Assembly (NCBI GenBank): GCA_013695505.1
Contig: JACDAH010000518.1
Span: 1 to 11,196, forward strand
Length of the DNA: 11,196 nt
Reading direction: 5' to 3'
From: Chloroflexota bacterium
GTDB taxonomy: Bacteria > Chloroflexota > Limnocylindria > Limnocylindrales > CSP1-4
Part shown: positions 5,835 through 11,196 of the stretch, piece by piece
Numbering within the stretch: the stretch's first letter is position 1
Layout: the number at the start of each line of letters is the position of its first letter
Notes under the pieces: generated by a model
Told to the model about the DNA's origin: nothing
Seen by the model: the letters and a program-made list of their open reading frames with translations, nothing else
The model's database searches: none
Translations under genes and position numbers: made by a program

Positions 5835-5964
5835 CCGGCGGCGCGCGAAGCGCTATGACACACGGCAAGGCTCGGGCCAAGTCGGGGAGCACTCCCAGAT
5901 AAGCGGCCGGTGAGCCCCGATTGCCACCATGGGCCGATGCCCGACCAGCCCAGACTCCGCCTCA

Positions 5965-5994
5965 TTGACAGTCGCCGATCCGCGTCCGTATCGT
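5965..5994 (+). promoter_or_regulatory. Putative promoter of the STAND regulator gene
   Basis: TTGACA (5965-5970), 18 bp, then TATCGT (5989-5994). The -35 is perfect and the -10 matches 4 of 6. The predicted start near 6001 gives a leader of about 120 nt. The element lies inside the longest open frame of the regulator (from GTG 5910), so a start further downstream fits better. The spacer length equals that of the 9395-9424 promoter. Confidence 0.45.
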
Positions 5995-6122
5995 TCGCGC
6001 CGCCCGATCCGGTCAAGCCCGGTGCACATGGCCGGAAACCCCATCGTGCGCCGATCGCCGTCGGCCCGGGGCGCGTGGAGAACGCGGCGCCCAATCGCGT
6101 CGGTGCCGAGCCAAGGGGCGGC

Positions 6123-9100
6123 GTGACCTACCCGATCCAGCCCGGCAAGATCCAGGTACCCGCCCTGCGTGAGGAAACGCTGGCACGGACGCGCCTGCTT
6201 GACTGGCTGCACGTCAAGATCCACAGCCGGGTCGTCTTCGTGATCGCCGACGCCGGATATGGCAAGACCACGCTCCTCGCCGACTTCTCCCGGCGGACGC
6301 GGCTGCGGACGATCTGGTATCGCCTGGACGAGGACGATCGCGACTGGGTCGGCTTCCTCGCCCACCTCGTCTCGGCCGGCCGCGAGTACGACGCAGAGTT
6401 CGCGCCCAGGACCGCTGCGATCCTCCGATCGCTCGAATCGGGTGGACCGACCCGCGAGGACGCGATCGACACATTTGTCGAGGAGTTGCCTTCGATCGTC
6501 GACGACGGGGCCGCCCTGGTACTCGACGACTTCCATCTTGGCGACGAGGTCGCCGACATTCGGCAAATCGTCCGAGAGATCGTCGCCCGCGCTCCCGAGC
6601 GCCTTTCGATCGTGTTCGCCAGTCGCCGCCCACCGGCGATCCCCGTGGCCAAGCTCCGGTCGCTCGGCGAGCTCGCGGAGCTCGGGATCGCGGACCTTCG
6701 CTTCTCGGACACCGAGATGGAGCAGCTGTTCCGCGAGACGTACGGGCGACCGCTCGAACCCGACGTCCTCACGGAACTCGCCCGTCGGACGGAGGGATGG
6801 GCAGCTTCACTGACCTTGATCCAGGCGGCGCTCCGCGAGCGGTCCCCAGCGGAGACCCGCTCGTTCGTCCGTAGCCTCTCGGGTGCGCGTGACGAGCTCC
6901 ACGACTATCTCGCCGAGGAGGTCGTCGGCGACTTGCCGGAGGTCCAGCAGCAGTTCCTGATGCGGACCTCGATCCTCCAGCGCGTGACGACCGAGCTGGC
7001 TCAGGTCGCCTCCGGCTTCAGCGCGATGGAGGTCCAGTCGATGGTCGCGGAGGCGGAGCGGCTGGGCCTTCTCGGTAGGCGCGCTCGGCGCCGATCAGCC
7101 GAGCAGCGCTACCACCCATTGGTGCGCGAGTTCCTTGAGGATCGCCTCCGCCGCGAGGTTGGCCCCGACGGCGTGACCGCATTGCACGTAACCGTGGCGC
7201 GCTGGGCTGAACCCACCGACTGGCAGACGGCGGCGCACCACTATGCGAGCTGTTACCTGTGGGCGGATCTCCGGAGAGTTATCGAGGCCAACATCGCAAC
7301 GATCGTTGCTTCTGGCGCGTTCGTGACCGCAGCTGACCTTGTTGCTCTGGTTCCGGGCTTCCCAAACACGGTGTCGTTCGAGATCGTCAAGACGCGCGTG
7401 GCAAGTCTTGTCGGGGATCTCGACATCATGCTTCGGCATGCCAGTCGAGCCGTTGAACTGGAGCCGGCGTCTGATATCGCGCTGAGCAATCTCGTGCACA
7501 CGATGTATCTCGCGGGCGACGGCGGTGCAACGTCGGAACTGGCCGGGCGCCTTGCAGCGACTGCAAAGTCCGGCGTCCTTCGGGAACTGGGCGCAGCAAC
7601 TCAGCTGACGCTCGCTGCCTCGATGGACGGCAGTCTTGTGGAACTCACGAATCTGCTGACCGCCTTAGCTGAGCGCAATCGAGAAAGTGGTCATCACCAC
7701 TATGAGGGGGTGAGTCTGCTGAACGCGTCACTCGCCCTCCTGGCGCGGGGTGACGGTGATGCTGCGCTGCGGGTGTCCTCCGATGCCATTGACGCCCTGA
7801 CTCGAAGCTCTTCGGGTTCGGAGCTGGTGTCTGCGAATTTGGCAAAGGCCCGCGCCTTGGCGTGGCAAGGCCAGATCGACGTTGCTCGCGGCGTCTTCGA
7901 GGAGCTTGGCCCCAACCAGCGACATGCCATGCGAGTGGAGCTCGACTTCGAAATTGCCGACATGGAGGTGGAACTGGGAGCCGAAGAGCGCGCAAGCCGC
8001 GCGATCAGAGATTTGAACAGCCGACCCAGCCTCAGGGCCTTCGCTGAGCTAGTGAAAATCCCGGCCGCGCTATTGTGCCTGCGCGAGCGCGACTACGACG
8101 CGGCCGATAGGATCCTCGCCGAGGCAATTGAGAGGGAGCCCACCCTCGAGCCGGGCCGCCAGAGTCGCTTCCTGGCCGTTCGCGCCTACCTCGCAACGAT
8201 GACTTCGGAGCCAATGGCACCGTCCTTGTCGAGGCACGCTGTCACCTTTGCCGACCGCCAGGGAGCAGATCGTCACCGTCAGTTGGCCGCCTTGGCTCTC
8301 GCGGCATGCGAGGACAGTCTGAGCCTCGAAATTTCCTCTATGCCAACGCGATTGACGCCGGTTCTGTCGGTTGGAGCCGAGCTGATCGTCGATAGGCTGG
8401 ACGGCTTATCGCCGGACGCTGACTCGATCGTGACGCGCGAAGCGACTTTGCGACCCGAGCGTTGGCGCCAAGCTCTTCGTAGGATCCTGCCGAGCGGCCT
8501 AGCCCACGTATCAAGGCTCCATGCTGCGCGACTGCTCGATGTCATTGGCGATCGATCAGATATCCCAGTCCTACGTAGGATCGCGCGGGAACCCCGACGT
8601 GCGGCGAACGATCGAACGCTCGGGCGCGGTTTGGCGCGGCGATTGGCTCCGAGGATCGTGGTCCATGACTTAGGACGCGTTCGCATCGCTATCGGCGAAG
8701 TGGAACTTAGCGGCGGGACAATACGCCGCAAGGTTCTTGCATTGCTCTGTTTCCTGCTAACCAGACCCCAACTCGCGGCAACGCGCGAAGAGGTAATGGA
8801 GGCCTTGTGGCCGGATATTGATCCAACGGCAGCTTCGAACTCTTTGAATCAGACGATCTACTTCCTTCGACGGGTCTTTGAAGCGGAGTACGACGAAGAG
8901 CACTCTCCGGGATACCTCCGACAGGAGTCAGATCTTGTCTTCCTCGACGAAGAGCTGGTCCAAGCGGCAAGCGCAACGTGTGTTTCGATCGTGAGGCGAC
9001 TAGACCGCCAGCCGTCCGTCGAAGATGTGGACGAACTCAGTCAGGCGTACGTTGGCCGCTTCGCGTCAGACTTTGCCTACGAAGACTGGGCGGTGGACTT

Positions 9101-9365
9101 CCGCGATTGGCTGCATGTCGCTTACCTGCAGATCATGGAAAGGGAGATCACTGCGGGGATCGAGACGGGCGAGTTCAACCGAAGCGTCACTCTGGCGCGA
9201 CGCGCACTCAGCGTCGACCCGCGCCTGGATACCTTGGGCTTGTCGCTCCTGAAACTTCTCAAAGGGGTTGGAGCTCACTCCGCAGCCGCGGAGCAATATG
9301 AGCACTACGCCTCGCTCCTTCGATCAGAGATCGGCGTCGATCCGCCACCATTCGAATCCATCTAG
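6123..9365 (+). CDS. MalT-like STAND ATPase/TPR transcriptional regulator with C-terminal wHTH-BTAD (SARP-type) module
   Basis: A 1080-residue signal-responsive regulator. Order: short N-terminus (YPIQPGKIQVPALREE); P-loop ATPase with Walker A ADAGYGKTTL (Lys48) and Walker B ALVLDDFH (Asp135-Asp136); the MalT-type segments RRTEGWAASLTLIQ (about 221-234) and RYHPLVREFL (about 329-338); an alpha-helical TPR-like region (about 360-830); a winged helix of OmpR/SARP type (about 846-935, with REEVMEALWPDIDP); and a BTAD domain to the end (ARRALSVDPRLD). MalT relatives usually end in a LuxR-type helix-turn-helix; here it is replaced. Such proteins switch on ATP plus an inducer bound by the TPR region. 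GTG 6123 has AAGGGG 4 nt upstream and places the ATPase at the usual distance. The frame is open from GTG 5910 (1151 residues), but the extra part is low-complexity and contains a promoter. Third-position GC drops inside the gene near 7150-7250. Confidence 0.9.
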   Translation: MTYPIQPGKIQVPALREETLARTRLLDWLHVKIHSRVVFVIADAGYGKTTLLADFSRRTRLRTIWYRLDEDDRDWVGFLAHLVSAGREYDAEFAPRTAAILRSLESGGPTREDAIDTFVEELPSIVDDGAALVLDDFHLGDEVADIRQIVREIVARAPERLSIVFASRRPPAIPVAKLRSLGELAELGIADLRFSDTEMEQLFRETYGRPLEPDVLTELARRTEGWAASLTLIQAALRERSPAETRSFVRSLSGARDELHDYLAEEVVGDLPEVQQQFLMRTSILQRVTTELAQVASGFSAMEVQSMVAEAERLGLLGRRARRRSAEQRYHPLVREFLEDRLRREVGPDGVTALHVTVARWAEPTDWQTAAHHYASCYLWADLRRVIEANIATIVASGAFVTAADLVALVPGFPNTVSFEIVKTRVASLVGDLDIMLRHASRAVELEPASDIALSNLVHTMYLAGDGGATSELAGRLAATAKSGVLRELGAATQLTLAASMDGSLVELTNLLTALAERNRESGHHHYEGVSLLNASLALLARGDGDAALRVSSDAIDALTRSSSGSELVSANLAKARALAWQGQIDVARGVFEELGPNQRHAMRVELDFEIADMEVELGAEERASRAIRDLNSRPSLRAFAELVKIPAALLCLRERDYDAADRILAEAIEREPTLEPGRQSRFLAVRAYLATMTSEPMAPSLSRHAVTFADRQGADRHRQLAALALAACEDSLSLEISSMPTRLTPVLSVGAELIVDRLDGLSPDADSIVTREATLRPERWRQALRRILPSGLAHVSRLHAARLLDVIGDRSDIPVLRRIAREPRRAANDRTLGRGLARRLAPRIVVHDLGRVRIAIGEVELSGGTIRRKVLALLCFLLTRPQLAATREEVMEALWPDIDPTAASNSLNQTIYFLRRVFEAEYDEEHSPGYLRQESDLVFLDEELVQAASATCVSIVRRLDRQPSVEDVDELSQAYVGRFASDFAYEDWAVDFRDWLHVAYLQIMEREITAGIETGEFNRSVTLARRALSVDPRLDTLGLSLLKLLKGVGAHSAAAEQYEHYASLLRSEIGVDPPPFESI

Positions 9366-9394: not shown

Positions 9395-9424
9395 TTGACC
9401 GGTTTACTGACGCGTCCCTATAGT
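9395..9424 (+). promoter_or_regulatory. Promoter for the leader RNA and mini-ORFs (TTGACC-N18-TATAGT)
   Basis: The -35 TTGACC (9395-9400) and the -10 TATAGT (9419-9424) each have one mismatch to consensus, with an 18-bp spacer. It starts 30 bp after the regulator stop. The predicted transcript begins near 9431, about 180 nt before the first mini-ORF. The long spacer is typical of promoters that need an activator. Confidence 0.7.
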
Positions 9425-9467
9425 CCGGTCGACTTCCCAGTACGGAGGTACTAGGAAGAGAAGTTAA

Positions 9468-9491
9468 GACGCTCGGACGCGCAGACGCTCC
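9468..9491 (+). repeat. Three 8-bp direct repeats in the leader
   Basis: GACGCTCG, GACGCGCA and GACGCTCC lie head to tail with an 8-bp period. All share GACGC. They fall downstream of the predicted transcription start, so they could be a repressor site, an RNA-protein binding element, or a chance slip repeat. Confidence 0.45.
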
Positions 9492-9537
9492 ACCTGAAAT
9501 GGGCACTTAGGGTGGCGCTGAGCGATTAGTGCAACCG

Positions 9538-9563
9538 ACCGACCATCGTGTCAGGTCGGTTTT
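9538..9563 (+). terminator. Terminator-like hairpin ahead of the mini-ORFs
   Basis: ACCGACC (9538-9544) pairs with GGTCGGT (9554-9560) around a 9-nt loop, followed by TTT and then CGTGTT. The stem is perfect and GC-rich, with a short T-run, which makes it the best intrinsic terminator on the plus strand. It lies 46 nt upstream of the first mini-ORF, so mini-ORF expression from the 9395 promoter would need read-through. This suggests attenuation, unless the mini-ORFs have another promoter. Confidence 0.6.
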
Positions 9564-9566
9564 CGT

Positions 9567-9623
9567 GTTCTCGGAGGGAGGATGCGGAGGCCGGAAGGAG
9601 GAACGAGCGTGTTTCCCGAGAAC
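9567..9623 (+). promoter_or_regulatory. Inverted repeat enclosing the first mini-ORF start
   Basis: GTTCTCGG (9567-9574) is perfectly complementary to CCGAGAAC (9616-9623). The 41-nt loop contains AAGGAGG and the GTG start of the first mini-ORF, and the right arm lies within its codons 3-5. Ribosomes on this ORF would melt the stem, so translation and structure are probably linked. Confidence 0.45.
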
Positions 9624-9641
9624 TCCGTCAAGGGCTGGTAA
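9609..9641 (+). CDS. Mini-ORF 1, 10-residue peptide ending in SVKGW
   Basis: GTG start with the best Shine-Dalgarno sequence of the region, AAGGAGG (9595-9601), 7 nt upstream. The peptide reads MFPENSVKGW and then TAA. A longer version from ATG 9582 (19 residues, with GGAGG 4 nt upstream) is also possible. It has no signal sequence. Its last five residues are identical to those of the next ORF, which begins 4 nt after this stop in another frame. It may be a second source of the same peptide, or a leader peptide whose translation controls the downstream ORF. The AAGGG within it (9630-9634) could serve as the ribosome binding site for ORF 2, 11 nt before its ATG. No family is recognised. Confidence 0.5.
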   Translation: MFPENSVKGW

Positions 9642-9737
9642 TCCGATGAAGAATCGCTTGATCCGGATCGCCATTTCCCTAGGAACCGTCGCCTCTCTGG
9701 CCATCGCCGGGGGCGCCTCGGTCAAGGGCTGGTAATC
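9627..9737 (+). repeat. 17-bp direct repeat pair at the ends of the two mini-ORFs
   Basis: GTCAAGGGCTGGTAATC occurs at 9627-9643 and again at 9721-9737, 94 bp apart. The preceding codons are TCC and TCG, both Ser. The match therefore covers codons S-V-K-G-W-stop plus two bases, in the correct frame in both copies, although the two frames differ. Confidence 0.9.
9646..9735 (+). CDS. Mini-ORF 2, 29-residue secreted pro-peptide candidate ending in SVKGW
   Basis: ATG to TAA, 29 residues. The product has the form of a signal peptide: positive MKNRLIR, hydrophobic IAISLGTVASLAIA, then GGASVKGW at the C-terminus. Signal peptidase could cut after AIA (leaving GGASVKGW) or after GGA (leaving SVKGW). 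It lies 4 nt after mini-ORF 1 and has only AAGGG 11 nt upstream as a ribosome binding site, so it is probably translationally coupled. Peptides of this size with the active part at the very C-terminus, encoded just downstream of a TPR regulator, are known as pheromones in Gram-positive bacteria (PapR, NprX, Phr). The same role here is inferred. Alternatively it is a small membrane peptide. Confidence 0.6.
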   Translation: MKNRLIRIAISLGTVASLAIAGGASVKGW

Positions 9738-9739
9738 AG

Positions 9740-9801
9740 TACGTTTGGACGCTAACGTCAGCGGCTTCGGAGGGATACAGTCGCCGCCGACATCCAACGT
9801 A
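9740..9801. promoter_or_regulatory. AACGT/ACGTT dyads upstream of the HD-GYP gene
   Basis: Three AACGT-type motifs occur: ACGTT (9741-9745), AACGT (9754-9758) and AACGT (9796-9800). The first two form a dyad with an 8-bp loop. TACGTTTGGA (9740-9749) also pairs with TCCAACGTA (9793-9801) with one bulged base. GCTAACGTCAGC (9751-9762) is a near-palindrome. An operator or a 5' UTR structure is possible; no promoter hexamers are clear. Confidence 0.3.
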
Positions 9802-9812
9802 CAGGGGCTTCA

Positions 9813-11196
9813 ATGCCTAGGTCCCTAAAGCTCTACATCACATCGCTCGTGGCTTTCAGCGCGTTGGCGCTGGTCGTCACGAGCTTTGTGTATGGAGTCC
9901 GCCCGGCGATCGCCCTCGAACTGGACGGCCAGACAGGCGCCTCAAGCCCGGAGACTGCCCTTGGGCTTCTCTTCTGGACGGCGGTCACCGCATTGGCTTC
10001 GGCTCTGCCCGTGCGAATGCCAAAAGGGATGTTGGTAACCGTATCCATTGCGCCGGTCCTCGCCGCGACCGCATTGGGTGGACCAGCAGCCGGCGTCTGG
10101 ATCGCGCTGGTCGGCTCGACTGAACTTCGCGAGTTGCGAGGGCGCGTCCCTTGGTACGGGACTCTCGCGAATCACGCTGGCATCGTTCTCCCCGCCGCCG
10201 TCGGAGGCGTCGTAATTGAGCTGATCCGCGGCACTTCTTCCTGGGTGCTACTCGACTTCATTGCGACCATCCTCGGTGCGATCGCCTATTTCGCCCTCAA
10301 CCTATTCCTCGTTTCGATCGTTCTGCACCTTCGGACGCAGCAGCGCCTCGCTGAACTCTTCATGGGGGACGTGCGCGCCTTCTGGGGAAATCTGTTCGCC
10401 CTAGCGCCGCTTGGATGGCTCATGGCGCGCATGTATTCGCTCCCCGGTGCGGGATGGTGGGCAATGCTGCTGTTCGCAGTTCCGCTCTACACGACTCGCG
10501 TTGCGTACAACCGGTTCGTCGAGATGCGCGAGATGTTCACCCAGACCATCGGTGCGTTGGCCGAGGCGGTGGACAAGCGGGATCCGTACACCAGCAAGCA
10601 CAGCCACAACGTGAAGCTGATCGCCGTCGACATCGGGCGGGAGATGCGGGTCAGCGCGTCGGAGCTCGAGGCGCTCGAGTGGGGCGGCCTGCTTCATGAC
10701 GTCGGCAAGATCGGCGTCCCGGACTCGGTCCTCTTGAAATCCGACCGCCTGACTCGGGACGAGCGGATGCTGATGAACGCCCACCCGGTGCTCGGCGCCC
10801 AGATCATCTCGCCGGTCACCAAGCTCGCCCCGGAGCTTCCGATCATCCGACACCACCACGAGTGGTACAACGGCTCGGGCTATCCGGACCGCCTGATCGG
10901 CGACGAGATCCCGAAGCTCGCGCGGATCCTCCACGTCGCCGACGCGTTCGAGGCAATGACTGCGGTCCGCCCGTACCGGCTGACCCCGCTCTCCAACGAG
11001 CAAGCCCTGAGCGAGCTTCGGAAGTTCGCCGGCATCCAGTTCGACCCCGCCGTCGTGGACGCGTTCGTGAAGACCGATTGGGTCCATGGAGTGAGCGACG
11101 CGGGTCGTCGCGAGGAGCCGCGCCAGATCCCGCTGATCGCCCACGCCGCGAACCGGATGACCCAGGCCACGACGGTCGGGTCGGTCGCATCGGCGT
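9813..11196 (+). CDS. Membrane-anchored HD-GYP protein (cyclic-di-GMP phosphodiesterase), 3' end beyond the window
   Basis: An open frame of 461 complete codons reaching the window edge without a stop. The N-terminal ~230 residues hold about seven or eight hydrophobic spans (for example 8-28, 46-66, 144-172, 211-227), an unnamed membrane sensor. The HD-GYP domain spans about 240-425: KHSHNV (262-267), catalytic HDVGK (295-299), HP (324-325), HHHE (347-350), GYP (356-358) and VADAFEAMT with RPYR (375-389). All metal ligands and the GYP signature are present, so hydrolysis of cyclic-di-GMP is likely. ATG 9813 has AGGGG (9803-9807) 5 nt upstream. It follows mini-ORF 2 by 77 bp in the same direction and could be co-regulated. 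Third-position GC rises from about 73% in the membrane part to about 93% in the HD-GYP part, with the change near 10515. Confidence 0.92.
   Translation, partial: MPRSLKLYITSLVAFSALALVVTSFVYGVRPAIALELDGQTGASSPETALGLLFWTAVTALASALPVRMPKGMLVTVSIAPVLAATALGGPAAGVWIALVGSTELRELRGRVPWYGTLANHAGIVLPAAVGGVVIELIRGTSSWVLLDFIATILGAIAYFALNLFLVSIVLHLRTQQRLAELFMGDVRAFWGNLFALAPLGWLMARMYSLPGAGWWAMLLFAVPLYTTRVAYNRFVEMREMFTQTIGALAEAVDKRDPYTSKHSHNVKLIAVDIGREMRVSASELEALEWGGLLHDVGKIGVPDSVLLKSDRLTRDERMLMNAHPVLGAQIISPVTKLAPELPIIRHHHEWYNGSGYPDRLIGDEIPKLARILHVADAFEAMTAVRPYRLTPLSNEQALSELRKFAGIQFDPAVVDAFVKTDWVHGVSDAGRREEPRQIPLIAHAANRMTQATTVGSVASA

Follow-up and report, generated by a model that had tools for sequence, protein, structure and literature searches.

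The window, which is the whole 11,196-nucleotide stretch of DNA that we analysed, contains two mini-ORFs, mORF1 and mORF2, located 3' of a c-di-GMP-II riboswitch and 5' of a gene encoding a MASE9 domain and an HD-GYP domain. Sequence comparison showed that the order of the module is conserved in these little-known Chloroflexota bacteria: a gene for a SARP-like STAND regulator, then a promoter, the riboswitch, mORF1 and mORF2, and then the MASE9-HD-GYP gene. Together, the mini-ORFs resemble a peptide signal of a new type. The explanation that we regard as the best, with confidence just short of even, is that they would form a peptide signal of a c-di-GMP circuit, in which the HD-GYP enzyme would be the likeliest target and the riboswitch would provide feedback.

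All features described here are on the forward (+) strand. mORF1 (9609..9641; GTG start at 9609, TAA to 9641) encodes ten residues, MFPENSVKGW, without a signal sequence, and is preceded by the Shine-Dalgarno sequence AAGGAGG (9595..9601); a Shine-Dalgarno match of at least 4 nt was found at 61 of 63 mORF1s. mORF2 (9646..9735, from ATG at 9646 to TAA at 9735) translates as MKNRLIRIAISLGTVASLAIAGGASVKGW, a signal-peptide-like product of 29 residues that a possible cleavage would divide into MKNRLIRIAISLGTVASLAIAGGA and SVKGW. It matched the mORF2 profile with E 1.1e-13, the window row being itself part of that profile. No Pfam or NCBIfam family matched mORF2 of the window, and mORF1 was too short to scan. 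The two ORFs and their different frames, as described in a sequence-only reading of this DNA, were confirmed from the sequence, as was the exact 17-bp repeat GTCAAGGGCTGGTAATC at 9627-9643 and 9721-9737, with Ser codons TCC and TCG in the two copies. That reading had further held that the arrangement is more than chance. Consistent with this, 54 of 66 homologous regions (strict regular expression, window included) contained a short ORF (6-14 codons) with a Shine-Dalgarno sequence and a tail of the form [KR]-x-[WFY]-stop. Such an ORF occurred in 0.03% of dinucleotide shuffles, in which alone Ns were converted to A, and was absent from all 4015 other 120-nt segments taken from these loci.

The genomes compared were mostly or all metagenome bins, and the window itself comes from a 2.5 Mb bin that is 61% complete. 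Families and genera are given numeric labels (f1 to f5; g1, g2 and so on), and f1 is the family of the window. The main table of 66 loci, window included, was built on mORF2 profile matches, so that mORF2 is present there by construction. It was derived from 73 loci with a profile match, from which 7 duplicates were dropped; 11 loci gave no match, namely ten loci with GAG/GCG-type aptamers and L012, which was too short. Further, L060-L089 (repeat fetches of the same places), L100-L117 (named records), L098 (at a contig edge, with the mORF2 tail only), L099 and L132-L135 were left out of the table. Counts independent of the mini-ORFs were obtained from two other sets, one picked by the aptamer and one by the HD-GYP gene; two loci of the latter set (L210, L211) were also matched by the mORF2 profile in a survey of the phylum. 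The aptamer-picked sample comprised 48 loci with an RF01786 match and the aptamer core, of which 47, including the window, had downstream sequence. L134 stops 5' of the HD-GYP gene, and L208 and G042:C39 are at contig edges.

mORF2 was found in all 47 aptamer-picked loci and mORF1, defined as an ORF ending in [KR]-x-[WFY], in 45 of them (all except L013 and L049). Among the 66 table loci, mORF1 was found in 63, or in 64 when L130 was added on inspection. In L013, mORF1 is one base out of frame and the HD-GYP frame also contains a stop; in L097, two Ns fall within mORF1. The length of mORF1 was nearly constant (10 aa in 47 of 59), and the 47 ORFs of 10 aa gave the consensus M-x-P-[ED]-x-x-x-[KR]-[GP]-[WFY]. 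It was shortened to MIKSW (L047) and MAIKSW (L048) in genus g8 and extended one residue beyond Trp in L169, L170 and L049. The length of mORF2 was nearly fixed within each family (25, 28-29 or 32 aa), and its tail deviated in L006 (IRL) and L094 (HVV). The gap between the mORF1 stop and mORF2 ranged from 4 to 61 nt, so that all three relative frames occur. Four f1 loci that were picked by the HD-GYP gene and missed by the profile (L169-L172; aptamers of 35-46 bits, below the cut-off) all contained mORF1, with tails RVWC, RVWL, KPW and KPW, and three of them contained mORF2. The fourth, L172 (genome G038), has an aptamer of 46.3 bits, the mORF1 MKPDSSIKPW, the regulator and the HD-GYP gene, and mORF2 is missing.

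Both ORFs are under purifying selection at the protein level, as judged from their substitution patterns. The dN/dS of mORF2 was 0.27 across 151 within-genus pairs (0.15 in the last nine codons) and that of mORF1 was 0.44 across 101 within-genus pairs; the same DNA read in shifted frames gave 1.4-2.2. Similarly, pN/pS of mORF2 in 11 f3 loci was 0.36 versus 1.5 and 2.2 in the shifted frames. Arg at position -3 of mORF2 is encoded by all six codons, and both ORFs use all three stop codons. The last five residues of mORF1 and mORF2 were identical in 11 of 63 loci, compared with 3.4 expected from within-genus shuffling and 0.5 from free shuffling, and none of 5000 shuffles reached 11 in either scheme. 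Eight of these 11 loci belong to genus g14 and the others to g1 (the window), g6 and f4; the codons of the matching tails mostly differ, such as Ser AGC and TCG in L034 and L054. The match was weak when the last residue alone was considered within genera (p 0.07), as was the tail-3 match when one locus was taken from each of 25 genera (mean of 4.2 matches, mean p 0.09). In genus g3, mORF1 occurs as in-frame tandem copies of a 27-bp unit that encodes units of nine residues such as SPEQNTRPW (L095, L097, L119). mORF1 of L095 reads MSLDQNTRPW-LPDQNTRPW-LPDQNTRPW, with 2.8 perfect copies of the unit; L119 has 4.3 copies (with two Ns) and L097 has 2.5 in its N-free part, and the remaining g3 loci have a single unit. 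This tandem expansion fits a peptide product.

The sequence-only reading had claimed that the C-terminal peptide itself is selected and had proposed an alignment of homologous loci, in which a C-terminal motif conserved with synonymous substitutions would support the claim. Such a motif was found: the tails are conserved, they match beyond within-genus shuffling and they do so with different synonymous codons. The claim stood for the motif as a peptide, and identical SVKGW tails proved to be one instance of a motif that varies. The 17-bp identity is local, for the congeneric L004 ends in GSKGW/SLKGF and L090 in VGKGW/SLKGF. It is the peptide motif, and not the DNA repeat, that is conserved. 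That the two copies in the window are exactly alike as DNA, stop codon included, would be expected if the repeat had arisen by chance or served as an element of DNA or RNA, with the ORFs being incidental. However, the DNA is not conserved in congeners, codons differ while residues stay, the relative frames vary, and dN/dS is low in the coding frames only; we therefore rejected this reading as extremely improbable. A case that had been named as speaking against the peptides, a 17-bp repeat kept irrespective of frame, was likewise not what the congeners contain.

mORF2 was found beyond the loci with a riboswitch. The MASE9 part, used as a protein query, had homologs in 98 of 177 genomes of the class. 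Families f3 and f5 have a 25-aa relative of mORF2 (e.g. MRRIVAVLVALAALVLGGGAGGQGF) ahead of the HD-GYP gene, as was seen in all 18 of the 18 loci with upstream sequence (17 from the HD-GYP list, and L135, which had previously been matched by the mORF2 profile). It is located approximately 150-215 nt 5' of the estimated HD-GYP start, starts with TTG in L179, and has a tail that lacks the K/R of the motif. In the same 18 loci, neither an Rfam aptamer (at E 0.1) nor an aptamer core was detected, and none had a mORF1-like ORF within 260 nt upstream. Among the distant MASE9-HD-GYP paralogs listed, the four that were read, all in f1, lacked such an ORF. When 400 genomes of the phylum were surveyed, the mORF2 profile matched at E 1e-3 in 34, all belonging to f1, f3, f4 and f5 of this class. 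These comparisons indicate that mORF2 is the wider-spread part of the module and that it alone accompanies the MASE9-HD-GYP gene in f3 and f5. Together with L172, they show that either ORF can be absent where the other stays. Thus the expectation of the sequence-only reading that homologous loci keep the ORFs held for most loci, which have both, and failed in L172 (no mORF2), f3/f5 (no mORF1) and L013 (frameshifted mORF1). Wherever this HD-GYP ortholog was examined and the upstream sequence was long enough, at least one of the two ORFs was present. Two f3 genomes (L134, L135) share a common leader, GTATCGGACCTAGGTAGGCCCTTAAGTC..., 5' of mORF2, which had no Rfam match at E 0.1.

The composition of mORF2 is that of a short pre-peptide. 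Its first eight residues carry 1-4 net positive charges and are followed by a hydrophobic core with a mean KD of 2.1-2.3 over 17 residues. Toward the C-terminus, Gly-Gly occupies positions -8/-7 (58 and 64 of 65), Ala position -6 (64/65), and Ser, Gly or Thr position -5 (64/65). Signal peptidase I favours features of this kind, and mORF2 may therefore be secreted. In the explanation that we favour, mORF2 would be a pre-peptide, and a cut after Gly-Gly-Ala would release a pentapeptide of the form [SGT]-hydrophobic-[KR]-[GP]-aromatic (SVKGW in the window); the cut at Ala -6 would free exactly the five residues that match mORF1. Alternatively, a cleavage site Ala-x-Ala at -11/-9 would release GGASVKGW. 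mORF1 would encode a ten-residue peptide that lacks a leader, stays inside the cell and ends in a C-terminus of the same type, and both tails would be read by one kind of binding site. A pheromone role, as suggested in the sequence-only reading, is plausible.

The pairing of mORF2 with the MASE9-HD-GYP gene in f1, f3, f4 and f5, its near-fixed length in each family and its hydrophobic core could also be explained if mORF2 were a stable one-pass membrane micro-protein that binds MASE9 and tunes the phosphodiesterase, being neither cleaved nor released. We consider this distinctly unlikely, because it leaves unexplained the tail shared with a soluble mORF1 of 5-10 aa and the tandem copies, and because Gly-Gly-Ala six residues from the end resembles a cleavage site.

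The riboswitch was absent from the sequence-only reading. Its aptamer (9466..9549), approximately 60 nt 5' of mORF1, matched Rfam family RF01786 over the full length with 64.9 bits (gathering threshold 53.5; E 5.5e-13) and thus belongs to the c-di-GMP-II family. In an alignment of 37 f1 leaders, the aptamer pairs, including the pseudoknot, were kept in 96.8% of cells and six pairs had two-sided changes, with covariation in P2; six f4 rows, three loci set aside by hand and genus g3, excluded by rule, were not used. Upstream of the aptamer is a putative sigma-70-like promoter (9395..9424) composed of TTGACC (9395-9400), an 18-bp spacer and TATAGT (9419-9424). The promoter block CGTATTGACC...CCTAtAGTCC was conserved in 40 f1 loci aligned on the -10 element (g3 excluded); 4 other loci had no -10 match to align on. 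The promoter is followed by an inverted repeat, or 5' RNA hairpin, CTTCCCAGTAC-GGAG-GTACTAGGAAG (9433..9458), and by eye most of the f1 loci printed have GTAC-n4-GTAC arms.

Two further hairpins follow the aptamer. H1 (CCGACCGAC/GTCaGGTCGG followed by UUUU; 9535..9563) is terminator-like; its 5' arm overlaps the 3' arm of aptamer helix P1 and its 3' arm reads GTCnGGTCGG across loci. H1 was paired in 98.5% of cells of the 37 loci and is mostly invariant, and because it hardly varies it has little support from covariation. H2 (9557..9593), a candidate antiterminator, overlaps the 3' arm of H1 and ends right before the Shine-Dalgarno sequence. It was paired in 93.6% of cells, and three of its pairs had two-sided changes, a number reached by 57 of 500 shuffles; its covariation score was reached by none of 500. 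P1, H1 and H2 are mutually exclusive by overlap. Overlapping in this way, the helices suggest that the terminator does not form when c-di-GMP is bound, so that the riboswitch would be an ON switch. High c-di-GMP would stabilise P1, block H1 and allow H2 and read-through, and the peptides would then be made.

In genus g3 (L118, L119, L123-L130), nine loci have an aptamer of 34.6-45 bits, which is under the Rfam cut-off, and L119 has no match; the ligand of the riboswitch may have changed there. Both ORFs remain in this genus. Weaker RF01786 matches in L002, L003, L050, L053, L051, L052, L055 and L056 were set aside as c-di-GMP-II-GAG/GCG aptamers 5' of other genes, as were L041 and L046, judged by eye to be of the GAG/GCG type. 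Aptamers of the c-di-GMP-II-GAG and -GCG types thus occur 5' of other genes in the same genomes (L002, L003, L050-L053, L055, L056), two of them divergent in L052, and some relatives have up to 13 RF01786-type matches.

The gene downstream of mORF2 (9813..11196) runs off the window and encodes a MASE9 membrane domain (Pfam, E 1.1e-9) and an HD-GYP domain (HD_5, E 5.3e-37), a predicted c-di-GMP phosphodiesterase. A homolog follows in 65 of the 66 loci, the window being counted among them; the exception, L047, ends at a contig edge. A terminator-like hairpin, GCTCGTGGC...GTCACGAGC followed by TTTGTGT (9845..9884; -27.9 kcal/mol), is located within the first HD-GYP codons. When longer hairpins and 220 nt were allowed, in a count made without a shuffle control, 60 of 62 f1/f4 loci had a hairpin at -15 kcal/mol or lower, which in 54 of them falls within the HD-GYP frame. 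The inverted repeat in the start of the HD-GYP gene is thus kept in 54 of 62 f1/f4 loci although the stretch codes for protein. In f3/f5, a T-tailed hairpin is located before the HD-GYP start: within 150 nt after mORF2, 16 of 18 loci had one at -15 kcal/mol or lower (22 of 108 shuffles) and 12 of 18 at -20 kcal/mol or lower (3 of 108 shuffles). By this f3/f5 rule, 35 of 63 f1/f4 loci had a hairpin at -15 kcal/mol or lower. The idea that the hairpin after mORF2 is specific to f3/f5 was dropped when control runs found those of f1/f4, mostly inside the HD-GYP frame. A second conserved block (9736-9812; GTACgttgGtcCcAT ... TAGAGT/TACAGT), also present in relatives, echoes the GTAC arms of the 5' hairpin and, from its sequence, looks like a promoter or operator of the HD-GYP gene itself.

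Transcription of the peptides may stop, or be attenuated, where the HD-GYP gene begins. Because of the terminator-like hairpins in the first HD-GYP codons and the promoter-like block before the gene, co-transcription of the HD-GYP gene with the peptides is uncertain, and the riboswitch may mainly serve the peptides. If the hairpin is passed, the phosphodiesterase would be made too, giving a feedback loop that carries the peptide signal. The f1/f4 hairpins slightly lowered our confidence in the favoured explanation, from even to just below it, and slightly raised that in another, which had appeared very unlikely and is now quite unlikely: mORF1, and perhaps mORF2, would be a leader peptide whose translation, stalling or reinitiation controls downstream expression via the output of the riboswitch or the HD-GYP hairpin. 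Reinitiation at leader genes has been proposed (PMC4833913). The strong Shine-Dalgarno sequence, the near-constant length of mORF1, its stop shortly (4-61 nt) before mORF2 and its co-occurrence with the riboswitch would fit a leader; further, mORF1 shrinks to five or six residues in the two g8 loci, and ribosomes could decide the folding of hairpins inside the HD-GYP frame. However, a leader peptide predicts neither the shared tail, nor the within-genus matching, nor the amplification of whole 9-aa units. Arrest is less likely for mORF2 because in f3/f5 it has neither a riboswitch match nor a neighbouring mORF1, and a terminator-like hairpin lies between it and the HD-GYP start; a leader or ribosome-arrest role of mORF2 therefore appears unlikely from these comparisons. 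mORF1 may have a leader role.

The regulator gene (5910..9365) encodes a MalT-like STAND/AAA ATPase, a middle region, and a C-terminal winged helix and BTAD (SARP-like). In Pfam, BTAD (E 2.6e-10) and Trans_reg_C (26.8 bits) were above the cut-off and AAA_16 (26.8 bits) was below its cut-off of 32.6; the MalT-like NCBIfam match at residues 78-447 was also below the cut-off. With precomputed Pfam domains of homologs taken into account, BTAD, winged helix and STAND ATPase are combined in one protein, as in SARP-STAND (AfsR-like) regulators. Counting the window, 63 of 66 loci have a regulator homolog upstream, even where its identity is 27-32%, as it is in five of the six f4 genera-level loci and in others. 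Among the other three, L025 is at a contig edge, and L058 and L128 have none. A search of the genomes of L058 (97% complete) and L128 (84%) with the C-terminal 350 aa of the window's regulator, which a very divergent homolog could escape, returned no match at E 1e-3; both loci keep the riboswitch, both ORFs and the HD-GYP gene.

In RNPP systems, the peptide gene usually adjoins the gene of a TPR-type receptor. By analogy, the peptide genes beside a large regulator gene, with the homolog so regularly upstream, would fit a reading in which the STAND-SARP regulator is the receptor: the exported pentapeptide would be re-imported and bind the middle domain, mORF1 would act from inside, and both tails would meet in the cytosol. 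For the related STAND-SARP protein AfsR, a passage of one paper states as unknown whether any inducer binds the TPR domain (PMC10936776). We consider this reading unlikely. L058 and L128 keep the rest of the module in genomes with no regulator match; mORF2 persists in f3/f5, where none of the 14 loci tested (L134 included) has a regulator match; and three f2 loci with distant regulators (L149 and L151-L153 left out) have no mini-ORFs. Pfam and NCBIfam identified MalT-like STAND and BTAD parts and no RNPP-type HTH in the regulator, which is not of the RNPP/Rgg (HTH and TPR) type.

The HD-GYP gene is the only partner never seen missing, and the regulator is unmatched in two genomes that keep the peptides; we therefore ranked the HD-GYP enzyme first and the regulator second. 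In the favoured explanation, the likeliest target would be the neighbouring MASE9-HD-GYP enzyme, and the STAND regulator would be a second or alternative receptor where present. Since mORF1 has no export signal, a receptor outside the cell could not see it without a transporter. A more specific form of this explanation, which we put forward tentatively as possible but rather doubtful, is that the exported pentapeptide sets the activity of MASE9-HD-GYP, while the riboswitch senses c-di-GMP and controls both the exported copy and the leaderless cytosolic one.

Known systems share parts of this arrangement. The aptamer resembles other c-di-GMP-II riboswitches (RF01786) in its full-length match above threshold and its location near a c-di-GMP turnover gene, and differs in that the first cistrons are two micro-peptide ORFs. 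AfsS of Streptomyces is a small protein. The regulator described here joins SARP-type DNA-binding and STAND ATPase parts, as in AfsR-AfsS with its small target gene, afsS being a direct target of AfsR in the cited passage (PMC10936776); unlike that system, the SARP part is C-terminal, the peptides are of 10 and 29 aa, and the unit includes a riboswitch and an HD-GYP gene. As in RNPP, Rgg-SHP and Phr systems, the predicted pre-peptide is very short, its N-terminus is signal-like, its tail has the size of a pentapeptide, and it is encoded next to a large regulator gene; here, in contrast, the phylum is different, there is a leaderless twin, two genomes have no regulator match and HD-GYP is the constant partner. 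Leader and arrest peptides are similar in that a short ORF with a strong Shine-Dalgarno sequence lies between a riboswitch and an enzyme gene with a hairpin at its start, and dissimilar in the matching tails, the tandem amplification and the f3/f5 mORF2 without a riboswitch match or mORF1. A literature search, with most subscription journals outside its scope, returned no description of these ORFs, and the word MASE9 was absent from the literature searched.

MASE9-type c-di-GMP phosphodiesterases and STAND-SARP regulators are the two classes of protein for which the peptides provide candidate ligands. If the favoured explanation is true, peptide communication in a little-known phylum would be wired to c-di-GMP via a riboswitch; in its more specific, rather doubtful form, the same chemical word would be spoken outside and inside the cell. 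The module also illustrates that genes of 10 and 25-32 codons, conserved across a class, can sit between larger genes. At three loci (L104, L105 and L106), a membrane-like protein starting with (M/V)LIGGI is encoded 3' of the HD-GYP gene on the same strand.
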